IMG/VR virus record: IMGVR_UViG_3300020196_000151
Span: 1 to 31,739 of that record
Length of the DNA: 31,739 nt
From: a virus
Strand: one strand, 5' to 3'
Shown piece by piece: positions 263 to 24,717 of this stretch. Every line of letters begins with the position of its first letter. The stretch's first letter is position 1. A program made the translations under genes and the position numbers. The notes under the pieces are model-generated. The model saw nothing but the letters and a program-made list of their open reading frames with translations, was not told the origin of the DNA and searched no databases.

Positions 263-580
263 TTATTTTTCTCTAATAAGTAATTCACCTAAAACTTCCA
301 TACGGCCCACTTGTCTTTGAAATTCATTTTGGTTCATATCTAAAGAGATACTTTTTAGAATTTCATCAAATTCTTTTTTAGCAGCTTCTTTATCAAATTT
401 ACCATCTACAACTTTTTTGTAATAAGGTGCTTTTACATAAAAGTGATTATAGGTTAACATTGCTAAACCACCTTTTTCTTTAGCTGTTTCAGCTATTTTA
501 GCGGCGCCTTTAGCACGTGTAGTAGCAAAATCTTCAAAAGTTTCTTTTGCTTCTTTTAATATATCAGTTAATTTAATCAT
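263..580 (-). CDS. Small putative internal virion protein with N-terminal ILKE tag
   Basis: A 105-residue, lysine- and alanine-rich, probably helical protein. Residues 1-10 (MIKLTDILKE) match the first ten residues of the next gene upstream (MIKLLDILNE) and of the 601-residue fusion enzyme (MIDLNTILNE). In T4, capsid-targeting peptides of internal proteins are removed by the gp21 prohead protease after a Leu/Ile-x-Glu motif, and ILKE fits that rule. The inferred mature protein would start at Ala11. The rest shows no known domain. Its start codon overlaps the stop of the upstream gene as ATGA, indicating translational coupling. The role as a head-internal protein is inference from the tag and neighbours. 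Confidence 0.8.
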   Translation of the reverse strand: MIKLTDILKEAKETFEDFATTRAKGAAKIAETAKEKGGLAMLTYNHFYVKAPYYKKVVDGKFDKEAAKKEFDEILKSISLDMNQNEFQRQVGRMEVLGELLIREK

Positions 581-1203
581 TTTTTTGTTTTTTTAACACA
601 ATTAGGATATCTTTTACCAAACATTTTTTTAAATCCTTTTTGGGTATATCCTTTCCAACATCTTTCTTTTAATAAATCTTCATTTTGTTGTATTGGAGCA
701 TATCCTGAACCATATGGCGCTGCTTTACCTGATTGTGGATCTGAAGTTTCTTTATTTAAACGTTTAGTTTTTTCTTTTGATGCTTCTCTACGTTTTTCAA
801 TATAATCTAAAGCACGTTTTAAACGTTTTTTTACTTCAGGATCTTTAGATCTTCCATAAGCAGCTCTAATACGTTGATGAATCACATTTATAATTTGTGA
901 TTTACGAGCATGTGGTTTAGCTTTAAATGATTTTTTAGCTAATGTATCTTTAACATCTTGAGCTGTCTTAAATTTTATACGCACAGTGTCTTTTGGATCT
1001 TCATCTGTGTATAAACGACGACTTGATCCTTTAGGTTTTTTACCTGTACCTTTTTTAGGTTCATCACCTTCTAGATATCCTTTTTTTACAGCTAAATCTT
1101 GGTCATTAGTCCAAATATCAGATGTTTTATATCTAACTTTTGACACCATATTTGATTTATATGGTGGATACATTTCATTTAATATATCTAATAATTTAAT
1201 CAT
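577..1203 (-). CDS. Basic putative internal virion protein, ILNE tag plus C-terminal CWKGY...PNC module
   Basis: A 208-residue, very basic protein. Residues 1-10 are the tag MIKLLDILNE, with a predicted Leu-x-Glu cleavage after Glu10. A Lys/Arg-rich middle part (about 45-160) would suit DNA contact inside a capsid. The C-terminus carries a compact two-cysteine module, CWKGYTQKGFKKMFG followed by RYPNCV. From memory this kind of module recurs at the C-termini of structural and hypothetical proteins of marine T4-like phages, where its function is unknown. The gene is coupled by ATGA to the downstream small tagged gene and sits one base from the upstream one. DNA-binding head-internal protein is an inference. 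Confidence 0.8.
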   Translation of the reverse strand: MIKLLDILNEMYPPYKSNMVSKVRYKTSDIWTNDQDLAVKKGYLEGDEPKKGTGKKPKGSSRRLYTDEDPKDTVRIKFKTAQDVKDTLAKKSFKAKPHARKSQIINVIHQRIRAAYGRSKDPEVKKRLKRALDYIEKRREASKEKTKRLNKETSDPQSGKAAPYGSGYAPIQQNEDLLKERCWKGYTQKGFKKMFGKRYPNCVKKTKK

Positions 1204-1204
1204 A

Positions 1205-2065
1205 TTACCAAAACCCTGAAAATGTTGTTTTAAATCCTAGTAGTTTAGCATAACGAGGTAAACGGCAACTCCAATATGAAGCTTTAGTTTTGTCTTTTTT
1301 ATTAGGACAATTATGGCGTTTAGAAAATGCCGCTCTAGCTTTTGGATTGTTTAATTTAGCTCTTAAACCACCACCTGCCATACCAAATGATACTTTCTTT
1401 ACTTTACCTTTATCTCTAACATAAACATAGAATTTTTTAGAACCACCACGTTTTGGTTTTCCAATTGGTGGTGTTTTCTTTTTCTTATCTGCTTCAGTTA
1501 GTTGTCCTGTTACTTTAGTAGTTAAACCATCTCTTTTTAATTTAGCAGCCATTTCAGCTACATTATCAGCAGTCATATCATAATCAGGATCACCTTCAAC
1601 TTGAGCGTAGTAAGTACCATCAGCCATTTTGTAAACATTGGCTACACCATTAGGACTTGAAAATATGGCTATATGTTCTTTAGAATCAAATGTACCTTCA
1701 CCTAATGCTTCTGTTAAGAATTCCTCAGTCAGAGGTAAGTCTAGTGGTACTTTAATATCATTATACTCGCCAAATGTACCTACATCTGTGTTATCAAAAT
1801 AATATTTATCTGATTCACATAACTGTATTCTACCATTATTATATAAGTTTCTTACTTCAGCAAATAATTTTAAAAACATTGCTGATTGAGGACGGTATAT
1901 AGATTCATTAACTGGTAAGTTATTTTCAATATGATAGTATAAGCCTTCAGAAATGAAGACTGGTTCTTTAGATTCATTAATAACTAATTTAGGGCCATGA
2001 TTATATTCTTGACCTACATAGTTAATAATTTTTTCAATATGTTCTTTGAGTTGAATCTTGTTCAT
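1205..2065 (-). CDS. Putative virion protein with conserved C-terminal Cys-rich module
   Basis: A 286-residue protein. The N-terminal third is helical and acidic and contains several Val/Ile-x-Glu steps (VINE, FISE, PVNE, then LTEE, FLTE) that could be prohead-protease sites. A small domain at about 125-185 contains YKMADGTYYAQVEGDPDYD. From about 205 the protein becomes Lys-rich and ends in a conserved module (YVYVRDKGKVKKVSFG, then HNCPNKKDKTKASYWSCRLPRY) with two visible cysteines and aromatic residues. Similar modules occur at the ends of marine T4-like phage proteins. The stop and start overlap as TAATG with the next gene. The precise function is not recognisable. Confidence 0.8.
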   Translation of the reverse strand: MNKIQLKEHIEKIINYVGQEYNHGPKLVINESKEPVFISEGLYYHIENNLPVNESIYRPQSAMFLKLFAEVRNLYNNGRIQLCESDKYYFDNTDVGTFGEYNDIKVPLDLPLTEEFLTEALGEGTFDSKEHIAIFSSPNGVANVYKMADGTYYAQVEGDPDYDMTADNVAEMAAKLKRDGLTTKVTGQLTEADKKKKTPPIGKPKRGGSKKFYVYVRDKGKVKKVSFGMAGGGLRAKLNNPKARAAFSKRHNCPNKKDKTKASYWSCRLPRYAKLLGFKTTFSGFW

Positions 2066-2493
2066 TAGTAAGATATTAAATCATTGTCATAACAATATTG
2101 CAAAAGATCTTTTACTTCTTTTTCAGATAATTCACCTTCATACACATCATACATGTTTTTAAAGTCACCAAATAATTCATGACTTTGCTCAGCATTGGCT
2201 ATAAACGATTTCATAAAATTTTTATCACTTATATATTGCTGAAGTGAATTTTTATTTATACCAAGCTTACTAACAATTTTTTCTATTTCACTATCCATAC
2301 CTTTATGTTCAGGATATTGAGAAATAAAAAATTCAGTATCCCATTCAGCCTCATATTCTCCATCACTTTGGGCAGCATCGTCTTGTTGTGTACCCCAAAA
2401 ATCTAGAATATCTTGTTCTAAATTACTTGAATTTTCTTTTAGGATACCAGCTAATTGCTGCATTCTTCTAATTTCATTAATTTGTCTTTTCAT
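2065..2493 (-). CDS. Acidic putative internal virion protein with RMQQLAGILKE tag
   Basis: A 142-residue protein if translation starts at the ATG at 2493. The frame stays open to 2541, but that extension overlaps the upstream gene and uses a non-ATG start. The chosen start follows the upstream stop (2495) by one base, the normal spacing here. Residues 1-20 (MKRQINEIRRMQQLAGILKE) form a basic amphipathic helix ending in ILKE, the same cleavage-type ending as the ten-residue tags nearby. The remainder is strongly acidic and helical (WGTQQDDAAQSDGEYEAEWD) with no recognised domain. By analogy to T4 internal proteins, the tag would direct it into the prohead and be removed. Confidence 0.8.
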   Translation of the reverse strand: MKRQINEIRRMQQLAGILKENSSNLEQDILDFWGTQQDDAAQSDGEYEAEWDTEFFISQYPEHKGMDSEIEKIVSKLGINKNSLQQYISDKNFMKSFIANAEQSHELFGDFKNMYDVYEGELSEKEVKDLLQYCYDNDLISY

Positions 2494-2494
2494 A

Positions 2495-2869
2495 TTAATA
2501 TGGAGTTGTTTCTTTTGCTTTTGGTAGTATCTTAAATTCAACTACACCTTCTATATTCTTAATATCTTCAACTATTTTCTTGATGGCGGCTTTAATGTCA
2601 CCTTCAAGTGCTGAAGTGTCAATTTTAATATCAACATTAGTCTTATAACGTAATTGTCCTTCTGAATTTGAACCAGGAACAGCAGCTTGTGAATTAACAA
2701 TAGTAACACCTGGTAAAGCACGCATAGCTGATAATATATTAGTTTGATCATTAACTTTAGTGTTAGTGATCATTGATGCTAATAATTGAAATTGTTTAGC
2801 AGCTGGTTTTTTTTCTTTTGGATTTTCTATTGGTGTGAAATCCTCTTCTTTTACTATGCGTATTTTCAT
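2495..2869 (-). CDS. Conserved phage protein, possible ferredoxin-like fold
   Basis: A 124-residue protein with a charged start (MKIRIVKEEDFTPIENPK) and then two similar halves: ILSAMRALPGVTIVNSQ near 45-61 and a helix plus strand around 95-117 (IKKIVEDIKNIEGVVEFKIL). The alternation of a helix, a Gly-Val turn and a strand suggests a small ferredoxin-like or ACT-like fold. I recall similar conserved proteins of unknown function in marine T4-like phages. It overlaps the upstream gene as TAATG and precedes the tagged protein by one base, so it belongs to the same translationally coupled cluster. No catalytic motif is visible. Confidence 0.75.
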   Translation of the reverse strand: MKIRIVKEEDFTPIENPKEKKPAAKQFQLLASMITNTKVNDQTNILSAMRALPGVTIVNSQAAVPGSNSEGQLRYKTNVDIKIDTSALEGDIKAAIKKIVEDIKNIEGVVEFKILPKAKETTPY

Positions 2870-3441
2870 TACTGCAAGTTTACTAATTTATATTTAGTTG
2901 ACTCAATTAATTCAACAAATGTATCTATTTGATTTTGAATATATGAGTCTTGAGGTAAAGAAGTACGATTTTTTTCAACATACATACATAATGCTTCAAA
3001 ATATTTAATCACATCATTATTTTCAATCCATTGTCCTTCGCCTTTATAACCAGTAATAATACCATAGCGGCCTTGAAATGACTCAACTAAAGCATCAATT
3101 AATGGTAATATACCCTCATAATATCCTTGTAAGGCTATATGAGCAGCATAAGCACCTGGTCCTTTAACTTGTAAATGAAATATATGAGCTTGTGTACGAG
3201 AAGCAAAAAAAGTTGATATAAATGAAGCCATCAACTGTATTGGGTTTGGTAGCTCAATAGATATGGCTAGTTCTGGTTGATTTGGATCAATAGTATCTAT
3301 TCCAAAACCTTCTTTAAGATTACCATCTTCAGCGGCATATAAAGCTCTCATGTATTTTTCAGCTGCCTTAGCATCTTTAGAACAGCCCATTTTTTTACCT
3401 GTTTCTTTATATACGCAATTTCCTTTACGATTATATGGCAT
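2869..3441 (-). CDS. Ferritin-like phage protein (DUF5856-like) with N-terminal two-Cys module
   Basis: A 190-residue protein in two parts. Residues 1-47 form a short module (MPYNRKGNCVYKETGKKMGC, then KYMRALYA) of a type repeatedly found on marine phage virion proteins. Residues 60-190 look like a four-helix ferritin/Dps-like domain: SRTQAHIFHLQVKGPGAYAA, then GYYEGILPLIDALVESFQGR. This resembles the viral family DUF5856 from memory. His, Glu and Asp residues lie where a di-iron site would be expected, but metal binding is not proven. The gene is the first of its cluster, behind an ATATTTAT box and a 7-bp inverted repeat in its leader. A DNA-protective or head-internal role is conjecture. 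Confidence 0.75.
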   Translation of the reverse strand: MPYNRKGNCVYKETGKKMGCSKDAKAAEKYMRALYAAEDGNLKEGFGIDTIDPNQPELAISIELPNPIQLMASFISTFFASRTQAHIFHLQVKGPGAYAAHIALQGYYEGILPLIDALVESFQGRYGIITGYKGEGQWIENNDVIKYFEALCMYVEKNRTSLPQDSYIQNQIDTFVELIESTKYKLVNLQ

Positions 3442-3444
3442 AAT

Positions 3445-3466
3445 TATGTAGAATTTGTCCTACATA
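3445..3466 (-). promoter_or_regulatory. 7-bp inverted repeat in the leader of the ferritin-like gene
   Basis: TATGTAG and CTACATA flank an 8-base loop. The element lies between the ATATTTAT box (which it overlaps by three bases) and the start codon at 3441. It could be an operator or an RNA hairpin near the start. There is no U-run typical of a terminator. Confidence 0.4.
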
Positions 3467-3471
3467 AATAT
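3464..3471 (-). promoter_or_regulatory. Putative late promoter box ATATTTAT
   Basis: On the coding strand this reads TATATTTATG and lies 22 bases upstream of the ATG at 3441. It is one of nine intergenic copies of the same 8-mer. It lacks an obvious -35 element, as expected for a gp55-type sigma. Confidence 0.5.
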
Positions 3472-3493
3472 ATCCAGATCCAATAATAAATAA

Positions 3494-3802
3494 TTACTTA
3501 CGAGAATTTTTAGCCTTAACAGTGGTTATAGGCATTTTATTTTTTTCAAAAAATTCAACTTTAACACGTAATGAAGCTACTTCTCTAGTCAATTCTAAAA
3601 CCATTTTACGTAACTCATCTTTTTCACGAGAAGATTCAACAAGTAGTGCTTCTAATTTAGAAATACGGTCTTTGCAATCATGGCGAATAAATTCCTCATC
3701 ACGTTCTCTACGCATTGATTTTTTTTCATAGAATCTAAAGGCTGCAGCGCTACCTAATACTGTGATAGCGGTCATGAGGACAGTGTAAATGTTATCTATC
3801 AT
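3494..3802 (-). CDS. Single-pass membrane protein with long coiled coil
   Basis: A 102-residue protein. Residues 4-24 form one hydrophobic segment (YTVLMTAITVLGSAAAF). A charged heptad-rich stretch follows at about 28-90 (ISKLEALLVESSREKDELRK), and the tail is basic (KAKNSRK). The topology of a short N-terminus, one membrane helix and a cytoplasmic or periplasmic coiled coil is found in some phage lysis proteins (i-spanin or holin-associated) and in membrane anchors. No lysis function can be assigned from sequence alone. Its own ATATTTAT box lies only seven bases upstream of the ATG, and the gene is separated from the downstream gene by about 50 bases. It may therefore be an independent late transcript. 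Confidence 0.75.
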   Translation of the reverse strand: MIDNIYTVLMTAITVLGSAAAFRFYEKKSMRRERDEEFIRHDCKDRISKLEALLVESSREKDELRKMVLELTREVASLRVKVEFFEKNKMPITTVKAKNSRK

Positions 3803-3809
3803 GTTGGAA

Positions 3810-3817
3810 ATAAATAT
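3810..3817 (-). promoter_or_regulatory. Putative late promoter box ATATTTAT, nearly leaderless
   Basis: The coding strand reads CATATTTATT, seven bases upstream of the ATG at 3802. If it acts as a -10 element, transcription would start only a few bases before the start codon. Confidence 0.45.
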
Positions 3818-3819
3818 GA

Positions 3820-4395
3820 CTATATTTGTGTTTCACGCAACTTTTTAATATATTCTTTAACTTGTTTTATCTCATCTTCATTTATTTTGCCACCACTCCA
3901 TGTTTCAATATCTCCTTGTTCACTAAAATATGAATCTGTTTTACTAGTATAAAAATCTTCAATAGCTTTTTCAAAATCATCTACCTCAGCATTTTTATTA
4001 GCATTCATCATTTTCTTTTCATACTCATCCCACTTACCTTCTAATTTAATTTTAGCCTCCATTTCAATAACACAATCAAAACACATGTGATGTATATTCC
4101 ACATTTTTTTATTTAAATTATTATTAGCCATTGGTTTATTACAACTAGGACAAGCTAGAGGCATAGTGATTAACTGTCTTAATTTATCATGTTTAGTAAT
4201 AGTTTGTTTAATACTATTTTTAATAGTCCATTTTTTACCATTTTCTTCCCACACATCTCCTTCTTTATAGTCTTGTTGTTGTTTACTATAACCTACTTGT
4301 GTACTTATAGAACCACCAGCATTGCCAGTGATAATATTTCTCATTCTTTGTACATCACGTTTTGAAAACTCTTTTTTTAAATTTGTATCACTCAT
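3820..4395 (-). CDS. Conserved phage protein with a CxxC...CxxC zinc-binding motif
   Basis: A 191-residue protein. The N-terminus (FSKRDVQRMRNIITGN) resembles a conserved family seen in marine T4-like phages. A likely zinc site is formed by Cys82 and Cys85 (CPSC) with Cys105 and Cys108 (CFDC); His102 and His103 lie beside the second pair. A WTIKNSIKQTITK strand-turn segment lies just before it. The C-terminal part is acidic and helical. The start overlaps the stop of the fusion-enzyme gene as ATGA, so the two are probably made together. The zinc ribbon suggests nucleic-acid or protein binding, but I cannot name a function. Confidence 0.8.
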   Translation of the reverse strand: MSDTNLKKEFSKRDVQRMRNIITGNAGGSISTQVGYSKQQQDYKEGDVWEENGKKWTIKNSIKQTITKHDKLRQLITMPLACPSCNKPMANNNLNKKMWNIHHMCFDCVIEMEAKIKLEGKWDEYEKKMMNANKNAEVDDFEKAIEDFYTSKTDSYFSEQGDIETWSGGKINEDEIKQVKEYIKKLRETQI

Positions 4396-6197
4396 AAACC
4401 TAAATCTTTCAATTGTTGTATTGTGTCAGCAGCTGAAGTATGATGAATACCTATTCCACCAGCATCTTTCCAACGTTGTATATTATCTTTTCTATCATCA
4501 ATTAAAATAGAGTTTGGTGTAGCAAATTCTTGTTTACGTTCTGCTTGACGTAATATAAGTTTAGTACCAGGTACATTTCTTTTTACCCAAACAAACTTAC
4601 CAATTTTAGATGATTCTTCTCTTGATGGGGCTGATAGTAAATCTGGATTATATGGTTTAATATAACTCCATAGTTGTTTTCCATCAGGCATCCAATCTAA
4701 TTTAATCCAAAATTTAACTCCTGCTTTAGTTATTGAATCCCAAAATTCTTCTTTTGGTGTATCAAAACTAGCTTCTTTACCTGTTAATTCTTTATATCCT
4801 TTATCAAAATCAACTAACACACCATCCATATCACAATATATTTTATAGTTAGTTTTTTCTTTTACATCTTCTTCAAATATTTCTGGTCTATATTCACCAA
4901 ATTTTCTTAATAAAACACCAGCAGCTGCATTAGCTTCATTTTCAACTGGTGAACCTGTTTTACCATCTTCTTTATTTAATGGTGTTAATTCATTTTGTTT
5001 ACGATGTACTAATTCATGAGCTAGTGTACGTAATATATCTGCTGTTAATCTTGGTCCTCTAATCACTAATAACTCATCAGTTTTAGGTTGATAAGCTCCT
5101 AATGAATGTATTTGTTTAGCTAATTGCTCATCATCACTAAAAGTAATTTTAGGTACTTTTTGTAAATCAAGTGCTTTAGAAGCAAAATCAATAAAGTCAG
5201 CTATAGTGTTGTCTGTATTACTCTCAGGTTCAGTTAATGTTTCTTCTAAAGATGATTTCCACCAATTAATAGTAAATAAATCTTCTTCTATATTAACTGG
5301 AATGTTATGTTTAGAAAAATAATTTAATACTTTTTCACGCTGATTAGGATTATCATTTAAATTAGGAATTAACATACGACGTTCTTTACCACCAAAAGCC
5401 TGTTGAGAATACTCAAATGGTATAAGCATTGTGTTTAAAAAATTCTCAATTTTATTTGTTAAAGCATAAGGTACACGTATAATTAAATTACCATCAGCTT
5501 GATTTTCTTGTAATGAATCAACATTTAAAACTGGTATTCCTAATATTTTAAGTATATCATCATATTGTCCTTTTTGAACAACCGCCTCTGGAAAACAACC
5601 TTCAAGTGCTTTATATGTGTTTAGATATTCATTTCTAGCTTTAGAATATTCAGTTGATGACTTATCAGTCACTGAACGTAATGCTAAAACATTCTTTTTA
5701 AGTTGTGTCACTAAACCACGTACTTCAGTTCCTGATAAGCGTTTACCCCCTGTTATTATTTTTTCCTCAATAGATAAAGGCATTACTCTAGTACTAAATG
5801 CTTTTTGTAGTGGTGTAAAATAATCTTGTTCTTCTACTTCATTTTTAGCACCAGCAACATATGCTTTTAACTCTAAATCATCATCAAAAGCTGAAAATAA
5901 ATCTTTAATTGGTGAGGCATCTGTACTGATTCTAACAGTTACTTTAGCCATTGGAGATGTGGCTAAATATAAATCCCAAATACGTTTACTTTGTTCTTTA
6001 GTTATACCATCACGTGTTTTATGTCCTATAAGTACTATTACTTTAGTAACATAAGAACGAGCAGCTAATTCTTTAACTACCTCAAAATGTCCTTCATGTG
6101 GTGGTTTAAATCCACCTGGATAGTAACAGATAGCAGGAGGAGTTTTTTGTTCATTTTCCTCATTTAACTCATTCAATATTGTATTTAAATCAATCAT
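4392..6197 (-). CDS. Tagged multi-enzyme fusion: nucleotidyltransferase, HExxH metallopeptidase-like and HAD phosphatase
   Basis: A 601-residue protein with at least three enzyme-like domains. Residues 1-10 are the capsid-type tag MIDLNTILNE. Residues 22-165 form a HxGH nucleotidyltransferase fold (NMNAT/cytidylyltransferase superfamily): GGFKPPHEGH with His34 and His37, and the late motif SGTEVR at 155-160. Residues 235-315 are an unassigned alpha/beta segment. Residues 330-435 resemble a zinc metallopeptidase: HELVH at 394-398 and a downstream ENEAN (419-423) that may give the third ligand. Residues 450-601 are a HAD phosphatase of the deoxyribonucleotidase kind, with DMDGV at 456-460 and LIDDRKDN near 565-572. 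Linkers contain Leu-x-Glu steps (SLQE 228-231, LTE 321-323), so it may be a polyprotein cut during head maturation. Substrates are unknown. It is coupled by ATGA to the kinase upstream. Confidence 0.85.
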   Translation of the reverse strand: MIDLNTILNELNEENEQKTPPAICYYPGGFKPPHEGHFEVVKELAARSYVTKVIVLIGHKTRDGITKEQSKRIWDLYLATSPMAKVTVRISTDASPIKDLFSAFDDDLELKAYVAGAKNEVEEQDYFTPLQKAFSTRVMPLSIEEKIITGGKRLSGTEVRGLVTQLKKNVLALRSVTDKSSTEYSKARNEYLNTYKALEGCFPEAVVQKGQYDDILKILGIPVLNVDSLQENQADGNLIIRVPYALTNKIENFLNTMLIPFEYSQQAFGGKERRMLIPNLNDNPNQREKVLNYFSKHNIPVNIEEDLFTINWWKSSLEETLTEPESNTDNTIADFIDFASKALDLQKVPKITFSDDEQLAKQIHSLGAYQPKTDELLVIRGPRLTADILRTLAHELVHRKQNELTPLNKEDGKTGSPVENEANAAAGVLLRKFGEYRPEIFEEDVKEKTNYKIYCDMDGVLVDFDKGYKELTGKEASFDTPKEEFWDSITKAGVKFWIKLDWMPDGKQLWSYIKPYNPDLLSAPSREESSKIGKFVWVKRNVPGTKLILRQAERKQEFATPNSILIDDRKDNIQRWKDAGGIGIHHTSAADTIQQLKDLGL

Positions 6198-6919
6198 TTA
6201 ATAAATGCCTTTATTTTGGATATAGCTTGGTCTTTAGAAGTGAATTTTGGTTTTTGTTTAAGTAGTTGTTGAATATTCTTATTCATAGCTTCAACTTCAG
6301 CTTTTCTTTTAGCTATCTCTTCTGGTGTTTTTGGTTTACCTTTAGCTTTAGATGTATCAAAAAATCTACGCTTTATTTCTTCTGGATTAAAACTTTTATC
6401 AGCATCTTTTGGATCATTGTTTATTAAAATAAATTTATCACCAAATGCTTGTTGATATGTTTCAATGTTTTGATTTACTTTTTCCCATGTATTTAACACT
6501 TGACCAGGCATTAATGAACGATCTCTATTTACATTACGTTCAAGTGATGTTACAGGAGAAACATATATCATTATCATCATAGTTTCATATCCTAATGCCT
6601 CTAATTCTGTCTTTTTTTTAAGTAAAGGACGTGAGGCTGCACCTGTACCATCAATAATAATATCCTTTAAATTTTTAAATGCTTTAGTGTATTTATCCTT
6701 AGTTGTTTTTTGAGCTTGACTCATTAATTTAGCGGCTTGTGATAATTGATCTGGTGTGAAATCTTTAATTTTAGTACCAATACCTGCTGCTTTAAGTAAA
6801 TCTTCATAAGTGTCATCAACATTAATCACCTTGAATTTAGATAATGGTAAAGCCTTAGATACAAAGGATTTGCCCGCACCTGCGGGCCCAGCCATGAATA
6901 TTGCTTGAGGAGTACTCAT
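6194..6919 (-). CDS. P-loop kinase, zeta-toxin / polynucleotide-kinase-like
   Basis: A 241-residue protein. Walker A is GPAGAGKS at 11-18, directly after strand AIFMA. INVDD (33-37) and IIIDGTGAASR (near 88-98) fit the acceptor-binding and second strands of zeta-toxin/AAA_33 kinases. NVNRDRSLMPGQV near 130-142 supplies lid arginines. A Lys-rich helical tail follows. The family includes phage polynucleotide kinases, chloramphenicol phosphotransferases and zeta toxins, so the substrate is open (nucleic-acid end, nucleotide or nucleotide-sugar). It lies directly upstream of, and overlaps by ATGA, a gene encoding a nucleotidyltransferase and a HAD phosphatase. That suggests a joint nucleotide or nucleic-acid-end pathway. 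The Walker A codons are unusually GC-rich. Confidence 0.85.
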   Translation of the reverse strand: MSTPQAIFMAGPAGAGKSFVSKALPLSKFKVINVDDTYEDLLKAAGIGTKIKDFTPDQLSQAAKLMSQAQKTTKDKYTKAFKNLKDIIIDGTGAASRPLLKKKTELEALGYETMMIMIYVSPVTSLERNVNRDRSLMPGQVLNTWEKVNQNIETYQQAFGDKFILINNDPKDADKSFNPEEIKRRFFDTSKAKGKPKTPEEIAKRKAEVEAMNKNIQQLLKQKPKFTSKDQAISKIKAFIK

Positions 6920-6925
6920 ATGTCA

Positions 6926-6933
6926 ATAAATAT
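6926..6933 (-). promoter_or_regulatory. Putative late promoter box ATATTTAT
   Basis: The coding strand reads AATATTTATT, six bases upstream of the kinase ATG at 6919. One base of the box is shared with the TAA stop of the AT-hook gene. Confidence 0.45.
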
Positions 6934-7412
6934 TAACTGTTCTTTTTTGGGCGCCCACGCTTACCTCCGGTCTTAACATACACTGTTGATTTTTTAAGTG
7001 CTGGATCCATTTTAGGTCTACCACGTTTACCACCAGTTGGTACATAAACTGTAGGTGTTTTCTTTAATGCTGGATCCATTTTTGGGCGACCACGTTTACC
7101 TTTTGGTTTATTTAATATAGCTTGTGCTTTTGCTTTACGTTTAAAATAACGTGGATGTACAATTAATGAATCTAAATAAAACGCTCGTACAGCACCATTT
7201 TCTTCTACACATTCATGACCACCATCTTTCCATCCTGGTGTATTTGGTTCATGTTTTTTACGGTAATAAAATTTAACACCAGGATCACTTTCATAATACA
7301 TGGCTGGTAATACCTCAATACCGTTTGTAAATTCTAGATATTGTTGTTCATCAGATTCCACCACATATGCTTTACGTGGTACAATGTTTGCTTCAATTTC
7401 AATTATTTTCAT
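6933..7412 (-). CDS. Triple AT-hook protein
   Basis: A 159-residue protein. Residues 1-95 form a compact domain (KAYVVESDEQQYLEF, then YYRKKHEPNTPGWKDGGHEC). Residues 96-159 form a basic tail with three AT-hooks, GKRGRPK at about 104-111, 127-134 and 149-156. The first two are each followed by MDPALKK and a TVYV spacer. AT-hooks bind the minor groove of AT-rich DNA, which suits this AT-rich genome. The tail is encoded by an imperfect 66-69 bp tandem repeat, so its copy number could vary. It sits between the small membrane-protein gene and the kinase. Roles in phage chromatin, transcription or host-nucleoid takeover are possible, but none is shown. Confidence 0.85.
   Translation of the reverse strand: MKIIEIEANIVPRKAYVVESDEQQYLEFTNGIEVLPAMYYESDPGVKFYYRKKHEPNTPGWKDGGHECVEENGAVRAFYLDSLIVHPRYFKRKAKAQAILNKPKGKRGRPKMDPALKKTPTVYVPTGGKRGRPKMDPALKKSTVYVKTGGKRGRPKKNS
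6942..7100 (-). repeat. Tandem repeat encoding AT-hooks
   Basis: Two full units (69 bp at 7032-7100 and 66 bp at 6966-7031) and one partial 24-bp unit (6942-6965) each begin GGTAA(A/G)CGTGG and encode GKRGRPK. The units differ at synonymous sites, so the array is not a very recent duplication. Confidence 0.85.
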
Positions 7413-8109: not shown

Positions 8110-9288
8110 TTAAAAATTAATCTGTCCCTGAATTCTTAAAAGTTTACCTTTTTGTAGATTGTCTTGTTTAACAAAGTCTTCAAATCGACGTTGTGAAATG
8201 GTATACATCATTACAAGTTCAAATTGCTTTATAGGTTGCCATTCTAAACCTATTTCTAATTCTTTTACGTTATAACTACGGGAATCAAGTTCATGTTTTT
8301 TACCACCATTATAAAAATGATATCTAGTAAAAGGAATTATTGTTTGATTATTTAATTTTTTCATGTAAGACGCCATTATATATCCTCCTGATAATGGCAT
8401 AGTAGAGATAGAATCTTTAATTTTATCAAATTGTGGACCACGGCCTACATTATATTCAGCTTGTATCCCAAATGGTTTAGGATATAAAATAAATGACATA
8501 GCCATTCGTTGATCTAGATAAGTCATATTTGAATTTATCTTGGTTCCATTTGATAGTTGATCCTTAGAAAATGTATATAGACCTCTATAGGCTTGGATTG
8601 ATGGTTCTATAATTTGGTTATTAAGTTGTATAGGCCACGTAAATCTAATTACTTTATGTAAATTATTATTTGCTTCCGGTCTATTAGCTGTTTGCCCATT
8701 GTATAATCCAATTCCAAAAATCCCATAATCACCACTTCCTTTTAGTCCATCTTTAACTAAATCGGCAAATAATTTTCTTTGCTTTGGTGGAGCCCAATAA
8801 AAAAAACCACCTATATCTCTTTCATTACTAACAGCACTATTTAATCCATCTGTTCTATCAAGTGGAAGTCGATTCTGACTTGATTGCATATTTTCAAACC
8901 CATACGGCACTTTACTTTGTCCTAATCGTATGCGAAATGAATTTGTTTTATCTAATCCTAAGTCAAAATAGGCATCACGTATTTGTCCAAAGTGTTGAGA
9001 AGATGATGAAGCATTACTTGCAAAGTCAGGTTGGATATAAAAATAAACACGTTGGTTTATTTGTCCTGAAAATATTAGCCTTAGTCGTCTAATAAAAAAT
9101 CCACTATTCTCTCCCCAGGATCTGTCGCATTGTTCACATCTTAATTTAGGATTAGTTTCAAAAAGCCTATTGTATCTAACTTGTGTATATCCTCTTAAAT
9201 TTATAGATTCGTACCATTTGTTAGTAGCTGTCTGACTGAAGGATAAAATTGGAGAGATTAATAGTAGAAAAAATAATAAATATTTCAA
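8110..9288 (-). CDS. Outer-membrane porin, phosphate-selective (OprO/OprP, Porin_O_P) type
   Basis: A 392-residue protein. Residues 1-19 (MKYLLFFLLLISPILSFSQ) form a Sec signal peptide of the style common in Bacteroidota. The mature part is a beta-barrel: LRGYTQVRYNRLF at about 31-43, FFIRRLRLIFSGQI near 64-77, RIRLGQSKVPYG near 119-130, many aromatic-ended strands, and a final strand ending QGQINF with a C-terminal Phe. This matches OprO/OprP-like porins in length and pattern; the substrate is not certain. The start codon is TTG (9286-9288), with no in-frame ATG nearby. The neighbours on both sides are phage genes. It probably inserts in the host outer membrane, altering nutrient uptake or receptor exposure. 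A bacterial gene captured by the phage is the simplest reading. Confidence 0.9.
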   Translation of the reverse strand: MKYLLFFLLLISPILSFSQTATNKWYESINLRGYTQVRYNRLFETNPKLRCEQCDRSWGENSGFFIRRLRLIFSGQINQRVYFYIQPDFASNASSSSQHFGQIRDAYFDLGLDKTNSFRIRLGQSKVPYGFENMQSSQNRLPLDRTDGLNSAVSNERDIGGFFYWAPPKQRKLFADLVKDGLKGSGDYGIFGIGLYNGQTANRPEANNNLHKVIRFTWPIQLNNQIIEPSIQAYRGLYTFSKDQLSNGTKINSNMTYLDQRMAMSFILYPKPFGIQAEYNVGRGPQFDKIKDSISTMPLSGGYIMASYMKKLNNQTIIPFTRYHFYNGGKKHELDSRSYNVKELEIGLEWQPIKQFELVMMYTISQRRFEDFVKQDNLQKGKLLRIQGQINF

Positions 9289-11972: not shown

Positions 11973-13073
11973 TTAACATTGAGCTTGAGATTGTATAGTT
12001 AATCCACCAAAACTTTCTGTTCCATCAATTAAACATCCTGTGCCTACAGTTCCACCTGGACTAACTGTAGTTCCAGTTGGATTTCCATTACAATCTGTGG
12101 CACTCCAAGTAATACTACCACCCGCGTTGTTTACTAAAGTATAAGCTGTACATGTAGGTATTGGTGTTTCTGTTGGTGTTGGTGTTATTGTAGGGGTTGG
12201 AGTTATTGTAGGTGTTGCTGTAGGTGTTGCGGTTGGTGTTGCAGTTGGTGTTGCAGTTGGTGTTGGAGTTATTGTAGGTGTTGCGGTTGGTGTTGCAGTT
12301 GGTGTTGCAGTTGGTGCTACAGTTGGTGTAGGTGTTGCAGTTGGTGTTGCAGTTGGTGTTGCAGTTGGTGTAGCTGTAGGAGTGGATGTTGGTGTTGATG
12401 TTGGAGTAGGAGTTGGAGTAGGAGTTGGAGTGGGAGTAGGAGTTGGGGTTGGCATAAATCCATCAGGAATTATACTTAATACAGCTATATTTTGCTCATA
12501 AAATACATTACCAATATATGAACTTTGAGATAGTAATGTTCCAATAGATGAACTCACATTACTACCACTAAAACGTAAATTATAATTTCCATCATCAAAA
12601 ATTTTATAAGTAGCTGATGAAGCACTTATATATGATAATTCTAAAGTAGTTGGTAATATTTTATCACCAGTTAATTGGCGTGGGAAATTAATAACATAAA
12701 TTAATGATCCATTTCCAGTTGGAAAAAATTTTATTGTATCTAAATTACCTAATTCAATAAATCCATTATAATATGAAGATGTAGATAAAGTACCATCATT
12801 AAAAATAGTACCTTGCATTGAACTTGTATTAACATATGTTGGTAAAAAGTTAGGATAATAAGTTGTGTTTATCATGTCATAAACTAAACGATCATATTGA
12901 CCATTAGTCTCAAGCTCATTATGTGGATCAAATAATGAACTAGTGAACTTAACACCTGCATTTACTGTGATTTGAAAGTCAGTTAAAGACCCAGATAATA
13001 TATTCCAGCTTTTATTTGCTGTATATGGAACTACAAATGAGTCTGATACATTAATTCGTTTAAACACTGACAT
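11973..13073 (-). CDS. Putative tail-fibre/adhesin with long Thr-Pro repeat
   Basis: A 366-residue protein in three parts. Residues 1-206 are a beta-rich domain ([26 protein letters not shown]-like strands). Residues 207-306 are an almost pure Pro-Thr repeat (PTPTPT, then PTATPT and PTITPT). Residues 307-366 form a small Cys-containing domain ([17 protein letters not shown], ending IQSQAQC) with four cysteines, at residues 307, 325, 345 and 366. A stiff extended Pro-Thr stalk carrying a terminal domain suggests a fibre or adhesin that reaches out from the tail. The repeat encodes an obvious slippage-prone tract. It lies ten bases from the upstream structural gene. Confidence 0.8.
12155..12452 (-). 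repeat. Minisatellite encoding (PT)n / (PTAT)n
   Basis: About 300 bp of imperfect 6- and 12-bp units (coding-strand ACTCCT and ACTGCAACACCA types) make the Pro-Thr stalk. Interruptions with Ile, Ser, Val and Glu codons break the array. Length variation by in-frame slippage would alter stalk length without frameshift. Confidence 0.9.
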
Positions 13074-23842: not shown

Positions 23843-24262
23843 TTATCTGCTTAAATTAGTTGTTGAAACATTTATCACTAAATTATCATTTTGGTTATTA
23901 ATAGAGTATTCTAAAACTAAATTAATAAGATTTAAATCTGATTGTTTTTTAATTATTATATCTCTAATAATAATATTAGGTATAAATGCTATTATTTCTG
24001 TCTCTAATCTAGCTGCTACACTATCAAAAGTTGTATCTGGTTCAAATAGAGATGCTCTTAAATTTCCACCAAATTGAGGATTAAAAAAACGCTCACCTTT
24101 ATCTGTTAATATATAATTTATTAAATTAGATTTAACTTGTTCTTTAGTTGTAAATGTTTGATTAAAAACATTAGTGTTATTATTAAATAAAACATTAATA
24201 CCAATGCCCTTTTTTTGGCCTACATCTTGTGGGTTAAGTCTATATGCGGGTCTATTTAACAT
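23843..24262 (-). CDS. gp25: Baseplate wedge protein, T4 gp25-like
   Basis: A 139-residue protein of the GPW/gp25 family. NLINYILTDKGERFFNPQFG near 47-66 and LRASLFEP near 69-76 are the family signature. LETEIIAFIPNIIIRDI near 87-103 is the following helix-strand. The length matches T4 gp25 (132). It connects the wedge to the sheath initiation ring. Its start overlaps the stop of the upstream gene (TAATG), and it is followed closely by gp6. Confidence 0.93.
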   Translation of the reverse strand: MLNRPAYRLNPQDVGQKKGIGINVLFNNNTNVFNQTFTTKEQVKSNLINYILTDKGERFFNPQFGGNLRASLFEPDTTFDSVAARLETEIIAFIPNIIIRDIIIKKQSDLNLINLVLEYSINNQNDNLVINVSTTNLSR

Positions 24263-24717
24263 TAGATTTTACCGTCTTGTTTCATTTTACTCATTAAAGC
24301 ACTAAAATCAGGCACAACATCAATTTTAACAGCATTAATATCCCCAGCTGGTCTAGTATTGGCTAACATTTGATCAACACTATTAACAACAGGAATATTA
24401 ATTGGTCCACCAAAGCCTTGAGCCATTGTAGAATCCATATTACCTAATGACTTCCAATCATTAGTAGTAGCTGTTTCATTCAATATCTCATTTAAAATAT
24501 TATTATTAGTAAATGTTTTTGGTTTTAAGGGCTGTGTAGGTTTGGCAGGTTTTATAGATTCAACCATGGAATTTTTCACAGTGGTTTGTTTGGTCTCTGC
24601 CACCACTGGCTTAAGGTCTGGTGCCTCAAGCAATATTCCAAGCTCTTCCCTCACAACAGCTTGTACCTCTTCACGTATAACTTTACGTAATAATTTTACA
24701 AATGTATCAGCTTTCAT
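24262..24717 (-). CDS. Helical phage protein with internal ILNE repeats
   Basis: A 151-residue protein. The N-terminal 32 residues form a charged amphipathic helix (FVKLLRKVIREEVQAVVREE). A Pro/Lys/Thr-rich linker (PTQPLKPKTF) follows, then NILNEILNETATTND near 74-88, which repeats the ILNE motif seen at the N-termini of head-associated proteins. The C-terminal part is a loosely conserved segment (IDVVPDFSALMSKMKQDG). From memory, proteins of this form precede gp25 in marine T4-like phages, with no known function. The promoter box is only four bases upstream of the ATG. Confidence 0.75.
   Translation of the reverse strand: MKADTFVKLLRKVIREEVQAVVREELGILLEAPDLKPVVAETKQTTVKNSMVESIKPAKPTQPLKPKTFTNNNILNEILNETATTNDWKSLGNMDSTMAQGFGGPINIPVVNSVDQMLANTRPAGDINAVKIDVVPDFSALMSKMKQDGKI

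Follow-up and report, generated by a model that had tools for sequence, protein, structure and literature searches.

The window, meaning the whole 31,739-nucleotide stretch of IMG/VR virus record IMGVR_UViG_3300020196_000151, is a fragment of a T4-like phage of Bacteroidota, in which several otherwise unrelated proteins open with short, similar N-terminal leaders. These leaders (tags) are very probably capsid-targeting propeptides, written in a lineage-specific dialect and T4-like in their working. The computed results behind this reading are the tag itself, its enrichment, the residue register, the clustering of the tagged genes, the protease and capsid genes of relatives, and a match to virion proteomes in a related lineage. 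The tag, which is probably a short amphipathic helix, would bind the prohead scaffold core while the head is being assembled and bring the attached protein inside. The phage S77 (gp21-type) protease would then cut after the terminal Glu (hydrophobic-hydrophobic-x-Glu) and remove the tag, and the freed protein would share the head with the DNA until both are ejected at infection. The steps that we infer are core binding, cleavage, ejection, and the activity of the proteins once in the host; for the phages of Bacteroidota, packaging itself and mature N termini after the Glu would likewise be predicted.

Tagged genes of the window

The original prediction named four proteins with a shared tag ending in I-L-x-E. 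All four leaders were found on the minus strand with this ending, three of them in proteins that open with MxxLxxILxE (type I), and the sharing held up against shuffling controls. The genes and their leaders are as follows.

263..580, minus strand: 105-amino-acid (aa) tagged cargo protein with an all-helical body (family searches, AlphaFold2)
551..580, minus strand: its type I tag MIKLTDILKE, ATG at 580
577..1203, minus strand: 208-aa tagged protein with a central domain recurring elsewhere (comparison with open reading frames [ORFs] of relatives)
1174..1203, minus strand: its type I tag MIKLLDILNE, ATG at 1203
2065..2493, minus strand: 142-aa protein bearing a type III leader (family searches)
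2434..2493, minus strand: its type III leader MKRQINEIRRMQQLAGILKE, 20 residues, ending in ILKE, ATG at 2493
2495..2869, minus strand: 124-aa protein bearing a probable short tag (ORF list)
2846..2869, minus strand: its probable short tag MKIRIVKE (MxIRIxKE starts in relatives)
4392..6197, minus strand: 601-aa tagged fusion of an NMNAT-like nucleotidyltransferase, a zincin-like region (HELVH) and a 5'-3' deoxyribonucleotidase
6168..6197, minus strand: its type I tag MIDLNTILNE, ATG at 6197
6194..6919, minus strand: P-loop kinase (zeta-toxin/AAA_33 like), untagged in the window (family searches)

The start of the 142-aa protein was taken at the ATG at 2493, not at the TTG at 2541 of the ORF list, because this ATG directly follows the stop codon of the upstream gene. 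MKIRIVKE, which lies outside the four leaders first named, fits the hydrophobic-hydrophobic-x-Glu ending, and the MxIRIxKE start recurs on several gene families in the relatives G008, G009, and G021; judged by this pattern, it is probably a fifth member of the set. The tagged genes cluster within the window (P = 0.02).

The claim that the tagged proteins are otherwise unrelated was borne out by family searches, in which the bodies of the four matched different families or none and shared no family. The 105-aa body had no known family or fold in these searches and no PDB match by Foldseek, and the 142-aa body had no homologue among the ORFs collected from related loci. In the AlphaFold2 model of the 105-aa protein, the mean predicted local distance difference test (pLDDT) score was 92 and that of the tag block 61, the low-confidence leader standing apart from the confident helical body. 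Its homologue in Flavobacterium phage immuto (NC_055915), gp082 (112261-112575), is annotated as a tRNA(Ile2) agmatinyltransferase, a name that is probably wrong. The 601-aa protein joins several unrelated catalytic domains, as in polyvalent proteins (domains assigned by sequence or model, injection predicted). Its N-terminal domain, the only part used of a weak AlphaFold2 model (pLDDT 60), resembles NadD/NMNAT (Foldseek E value 4.5e-4), and its first ten residues are identical in 6/6 close full-length homologues.

Enrichment of the leaders beyond chance

Clustering on bodies alone, after the first 20 residues had been trimmed, sorted the ORFs from the window, phage immuto, 188 related loci, and six larger phage records into 1,171 families, each of which was represented in the count by one member drawn at random. 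The type I tag opened about 46 of the 1,171 families, against 2.0 with shuffled N termini and 1.1 at internal Met. At the shuffling rate, about 0.06 would be expected by chance in the 37 genes of the window, where 3 were seen (Poisson probability about 4e-5). Four further classes stood out from their shuffled counterparts: class II (MDNFDLKKFLxE; 11 families observed, 0 shuffled), class III (RMQxLAGIxxE, to which the leader of the 142-aa protein belongs; about 15 and 0), class IV (MKKSELRQIIREE; 28 and 0.7), and class V (WRKFVxE; 4.5 and 0). By ORF, type I was present in 180/2,417 of the relatives' ORFs, and random viral contigs had tags in 2/534.

The tag is common to unrelated bodies, with 135 greedy representatives free of mutual BLAST hits. 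DNA coding for MIKLxDILxE occurs in at least 120 stretches across IMG/VR; 88 of the 92 matches examined, among the matches listed, began at the first ATG of their frame, dozens of unrelated proteins being represented, and the reversed pattern scanned over all of IMG/VR gave 0 matches. The proposed motif reaches further in related phages than was first stated, with several tag classes and >100 cargo families, the majority unannotated, in the phages of Bacteroidota.

The residue register and its T4 counterpart

When families were counted without using the motif, hydrophobic residues at positions 4, 7, and 8 before Glu10 were the commonest of all 56 position triples. Suppressor mutagenesis of the 10-residue T4 leader assigned residues 4 and 7 to capsid targeting and residues 8 and 10 to processing (PMC9026906), so that the conserved register coincides with the T4 targeting and cleavage residues, and the suggested likeness to the cleaved T4 peptides is upheld at the level of mutation-mapped positions. 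In the tag of the 105-aa family (20 aligned homologues), I2, K3, and L4 were conserved at ≥90%, and besides Met1 only L8 and E10 never varied.

The T4 capsid-targeting sequence of IPII and IPIII (MKTYQEFIAE) is likewise N-terminal, 10 residues long, hydrophobic at 4, 7, and 8 with Glu10, common to unrelated proteins, and accompanied by an S77 protease in the genome (here in the genomes of relatives). The present leaders differ in having I/L in place of Y/F, several classes per genome, and more cargo families, which include enzymes and fusions, whereas T4 cargo consists of small basic internal proteins. T4 Alt, an enzyme that is packaged, has its propeptides cleaved by gp21 (PMC9026906); it and a tagged ART-PolyVal protein of a relative (L297) are both ADP-ribosyltransferases, but of different families, and many other enzyme types are tagged here.

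Modularity and cargo

Unrelated enzymes gain and lose the tag between phages, and fusions are tagged once, at the N terminus; the tag thus marks the polypeptide, not the domain. Of the 58 members of the P-loop kinase family, 42 carried a type I tag and 1 a type V tag. Some phages encode the central domain of the 208-aa protein as a tagged protein in its own right; elsewhere it lies inside 1,000-residue fusions with a single N-terminal tag. Among fusions with a nucleotidase domain, 15/19 carried a leader at their own N terminus. Other tagged proteins of relatives were the ART-PolyVal ADP-ribosyltransferase (Pfam E value 1.3e-27), a polyA-polymerase/CCA-type enzyme, an exonuclease domain, a phosphoribosyltransferase domain, and P-loop kinases fused to nucleotidase. 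Tags of unrelated proteins were more alike within a contig (0.294) than between contigs (0.236; P about 0.001), with no difference in a control segment, which amounts to a modest dialect effect.

Protease, capsid protein, and genome neighborhood

A gp21-type Peptidase_S77 protease (Pfam PF03420, above the curated cutoff) and a gp23 capsid protein are encoded by G008, G009, and G021, close relatives in which the 601-aa protein is 71 to 84% identical to that of the window. S77 was present in 9/9 records of ≥100 kb from the tag-bearing sets and in the cultured relative phage immuto. The N termini of the relatives' gp21 read ..LIE, like T4 gp21. A propeptide-like region of their gp23 ends in a conserved ENQAKQLVVE-type site (V-x-E), which on this sequence evidence is presumed to mark the propeptide end.

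The tagged module adjoins the terminase, portal, protease, scaffold, and capsid genes; in immuto it is flanked by primase/exonuclease on one side and by terminase-gp20-protease-scaffold-gp23 on the other. Tagged gene products of immuto include gp076, gp077, gp082, gp083, gp087, gp092, and gp093. Clustering of tagged genes was seen in all genomes tested (P from 0.0002 to 0.02).

Leaders in published cyanophage virion proteomes

For the T4-like cyanophage S-CREM2, a virion proteome based on mass spectrometry (MS) has been published (PMC10665884). Its MS-detected proteins include an S-adenosylmethionine hydrolase starting with MKDFDSFLEE, an APH-like kinase (MKRFDAFLTE), a cytidylyltransferase (MKNFSSFLTE), gp13 (MKDLHSFLTE), and gp136 (MQTFSMFFSE). 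The exact register (4, 7, 8, 10) occurred in 6 S-CREM2 proteins, 5 of them detected in virions. It was matched by 5/28 detected nonstructural proteins against 1/159 undetected ORFs (Fisher P = 3e-4) and by 0/24 structural proteins; when the comparison took in all 52 detected proteins, P was 0.004. Virion-detected NMNATs start with MKSFLQFLKE in S-SCSM1 and with MRFRQFIIE, one residue shorter, in S-SZBM1. In all three cyanophages, the NMNAT-like protein detected in virions has a leader of this sort, as does the 601-aa protein of the window. The virion-detected, Cas9-like gp12 of S-CREM2 (L465:4205-6814) has FxxFMAE-A at residues 19 to 25 behind an N-terminal extension, as if a tag stood behind extra residues or the start had been misannotated.

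Several points weigh against the capsid-targeting reading. Some S-CREM2 N termini had been viewed before the genome-wide test, the register having been set earlier from T4 and the triple count. Most virion-detected hypothetical proteins of S-CREM2, S-SZBM1, and S-SCSM1 are without the exact-register tag, which makes the tag an incomplete marker of virion cargo. The cyanophage authors were unable to exclude copurifying contaminants (PMC10665884 and PMC9602691); the leader on the virion enzymes favors packaging over contamination. S77 was also present in 4/8 random viral contigs of ≥56 kb, so its co-occurrence with the tags is weak by itself; it was dropped as proof and is counted as consistency. 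Finally, the expected gp21-like protease is encoded by close relatives, but the window's own copy is not visible, because the 31.7-kb fragment, with its baseplate genes, exonuclease, and primase, has no head genes.

Alternative explanations

It is unlikely that the tag directs its bearers to the virion or an assembly intermediate uncleaved, or to a site other than the head interior, such as the tail lumen or baseplate. This alternative is favored by a similar N terminus in a family encoded next to the baseplate genes (window 24262-24717, immuto 81525-81944). The processing residues of T4, L8 and E10, are nevertheless invariant in the 105-aa family, where targeting alone would need no fixed Glu, and the tagged module adjoins head genes.

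Still less probable is a reading in which the peptide has no function and the starts are alike through recombinational spread of a DNA cassette or through a preference in translation initiation. Synonymous constraint fits this idea: counting one tag per family (tags of L003-L190 and L262-L341), type I Ile7 was ATA in 43/46 families (genome, 40%) and Asp6 was GAC in 23/38 (genome, 19%). Against it, the codons of Ile2, Lys3, Leu4, Leu8, and Glu10 were near genome usage, codons 6 and 7 were shared about equally within and between contigs, other classes share the same ending with other codons, and cyanophages keep the register with another sequence. The comparison of same-contig with different-contig pairs gives no support to recent cassette copying.

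A composition artefact of adenine-thymine-rich genomes, in which Met-Ile-Lys-Leu and Ile-Leu-Lys-Glu are cheap words (the window has 29% guanine plus cytosine), is ruled out by four controls, none of which (shuffled N termini, internal Met, the reversed pattern, and random viral contigs) reproduced the tag pattern.

Beyond the capsid-targeting reading, we consider it a rather doubtful possibility that the tag classes are separate addresses or loading orders in one virion and that type I carries an additional nucleotide-level signal (GAYATAYTA, codons 6 to 8). If so, this signal might, for example, recruit late mRNAs or nascent cargo to proheads under assembly. No Shine-Dalgarno sequence was found upstream of the tagged genes in relatives. 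The same upstream regions are A-rich at -14 to -12, with A at -6 and -3 to -1, which fits a Bacteroidota host.

Other features of the window

The baseplate-adjacent protein at 24262-24717 starts with MKADTFVKLLRKVIREE, which resembles the class IV tags, and its N terminus may be a tag or may simply belong to a helical tail protein. The gene at 8110-9288 appears by eye to encode a signal peptide and an outer-membrane beta-barrel (porin-like) protein, unusual for a phage. Repeats were seen at 6933-7412 and 11973-13073, one gene with three RGRPKMDPALKK-like units and the other with a long (TPTA/TPTP)n stretch.

Relation to known systems and implications

The principle is already known. The literature searched contained neither the dialect nor the multiple tag classes, nor this breadth of cargo. 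At the level of titles and abstracts, the publications found on the capsid-targeting sequence covered T4, P1, P22, and a giant phage, and none concerned Bacteroidota or marine T4-like phages. In the giant phages phiKZ and SPN3US, the prohead protease cuts head proteins after Glu behind a short motif (PMC9026906), but that protease is divergent and the propeptides are unrelated. The virion NMNATs and kinases of S-CREM2, S-SCSM1, and S-SZBM1 include the same NMNAT-like family as window 4392-6197, with the same leader register; the cyanophage dialect, MKxFxxFLxE, is unlike that of the window, and the passages of those papers that were consulted do not mention the leader. Polyvalent proteins of phages and plasmids are likewise multidomain enzyme fusions predicted to be injected (PMC5512222); the phrase "capsid targeting" does not occur in that paper, and the short leader described here is a possible entry signal.

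With such leaders, the question of what a phage injects alongside its DNA would become a matter of sequence search, and in cyanophage virions the leader offers an independent criterion for telling a packaged enzyme from a contaminant. In Flavobacteria, the leaders may also serve as candidates for the loading of phage heads with proteins. For the phages of Bacteroidota, >100 mostly unannotated families are nominated as likely early effectors, among them NMNAT, nucleotidase, P-loop kinases, ADP-ribosyltransferase, and a CCA/polyA-polymerase-like enzyme.
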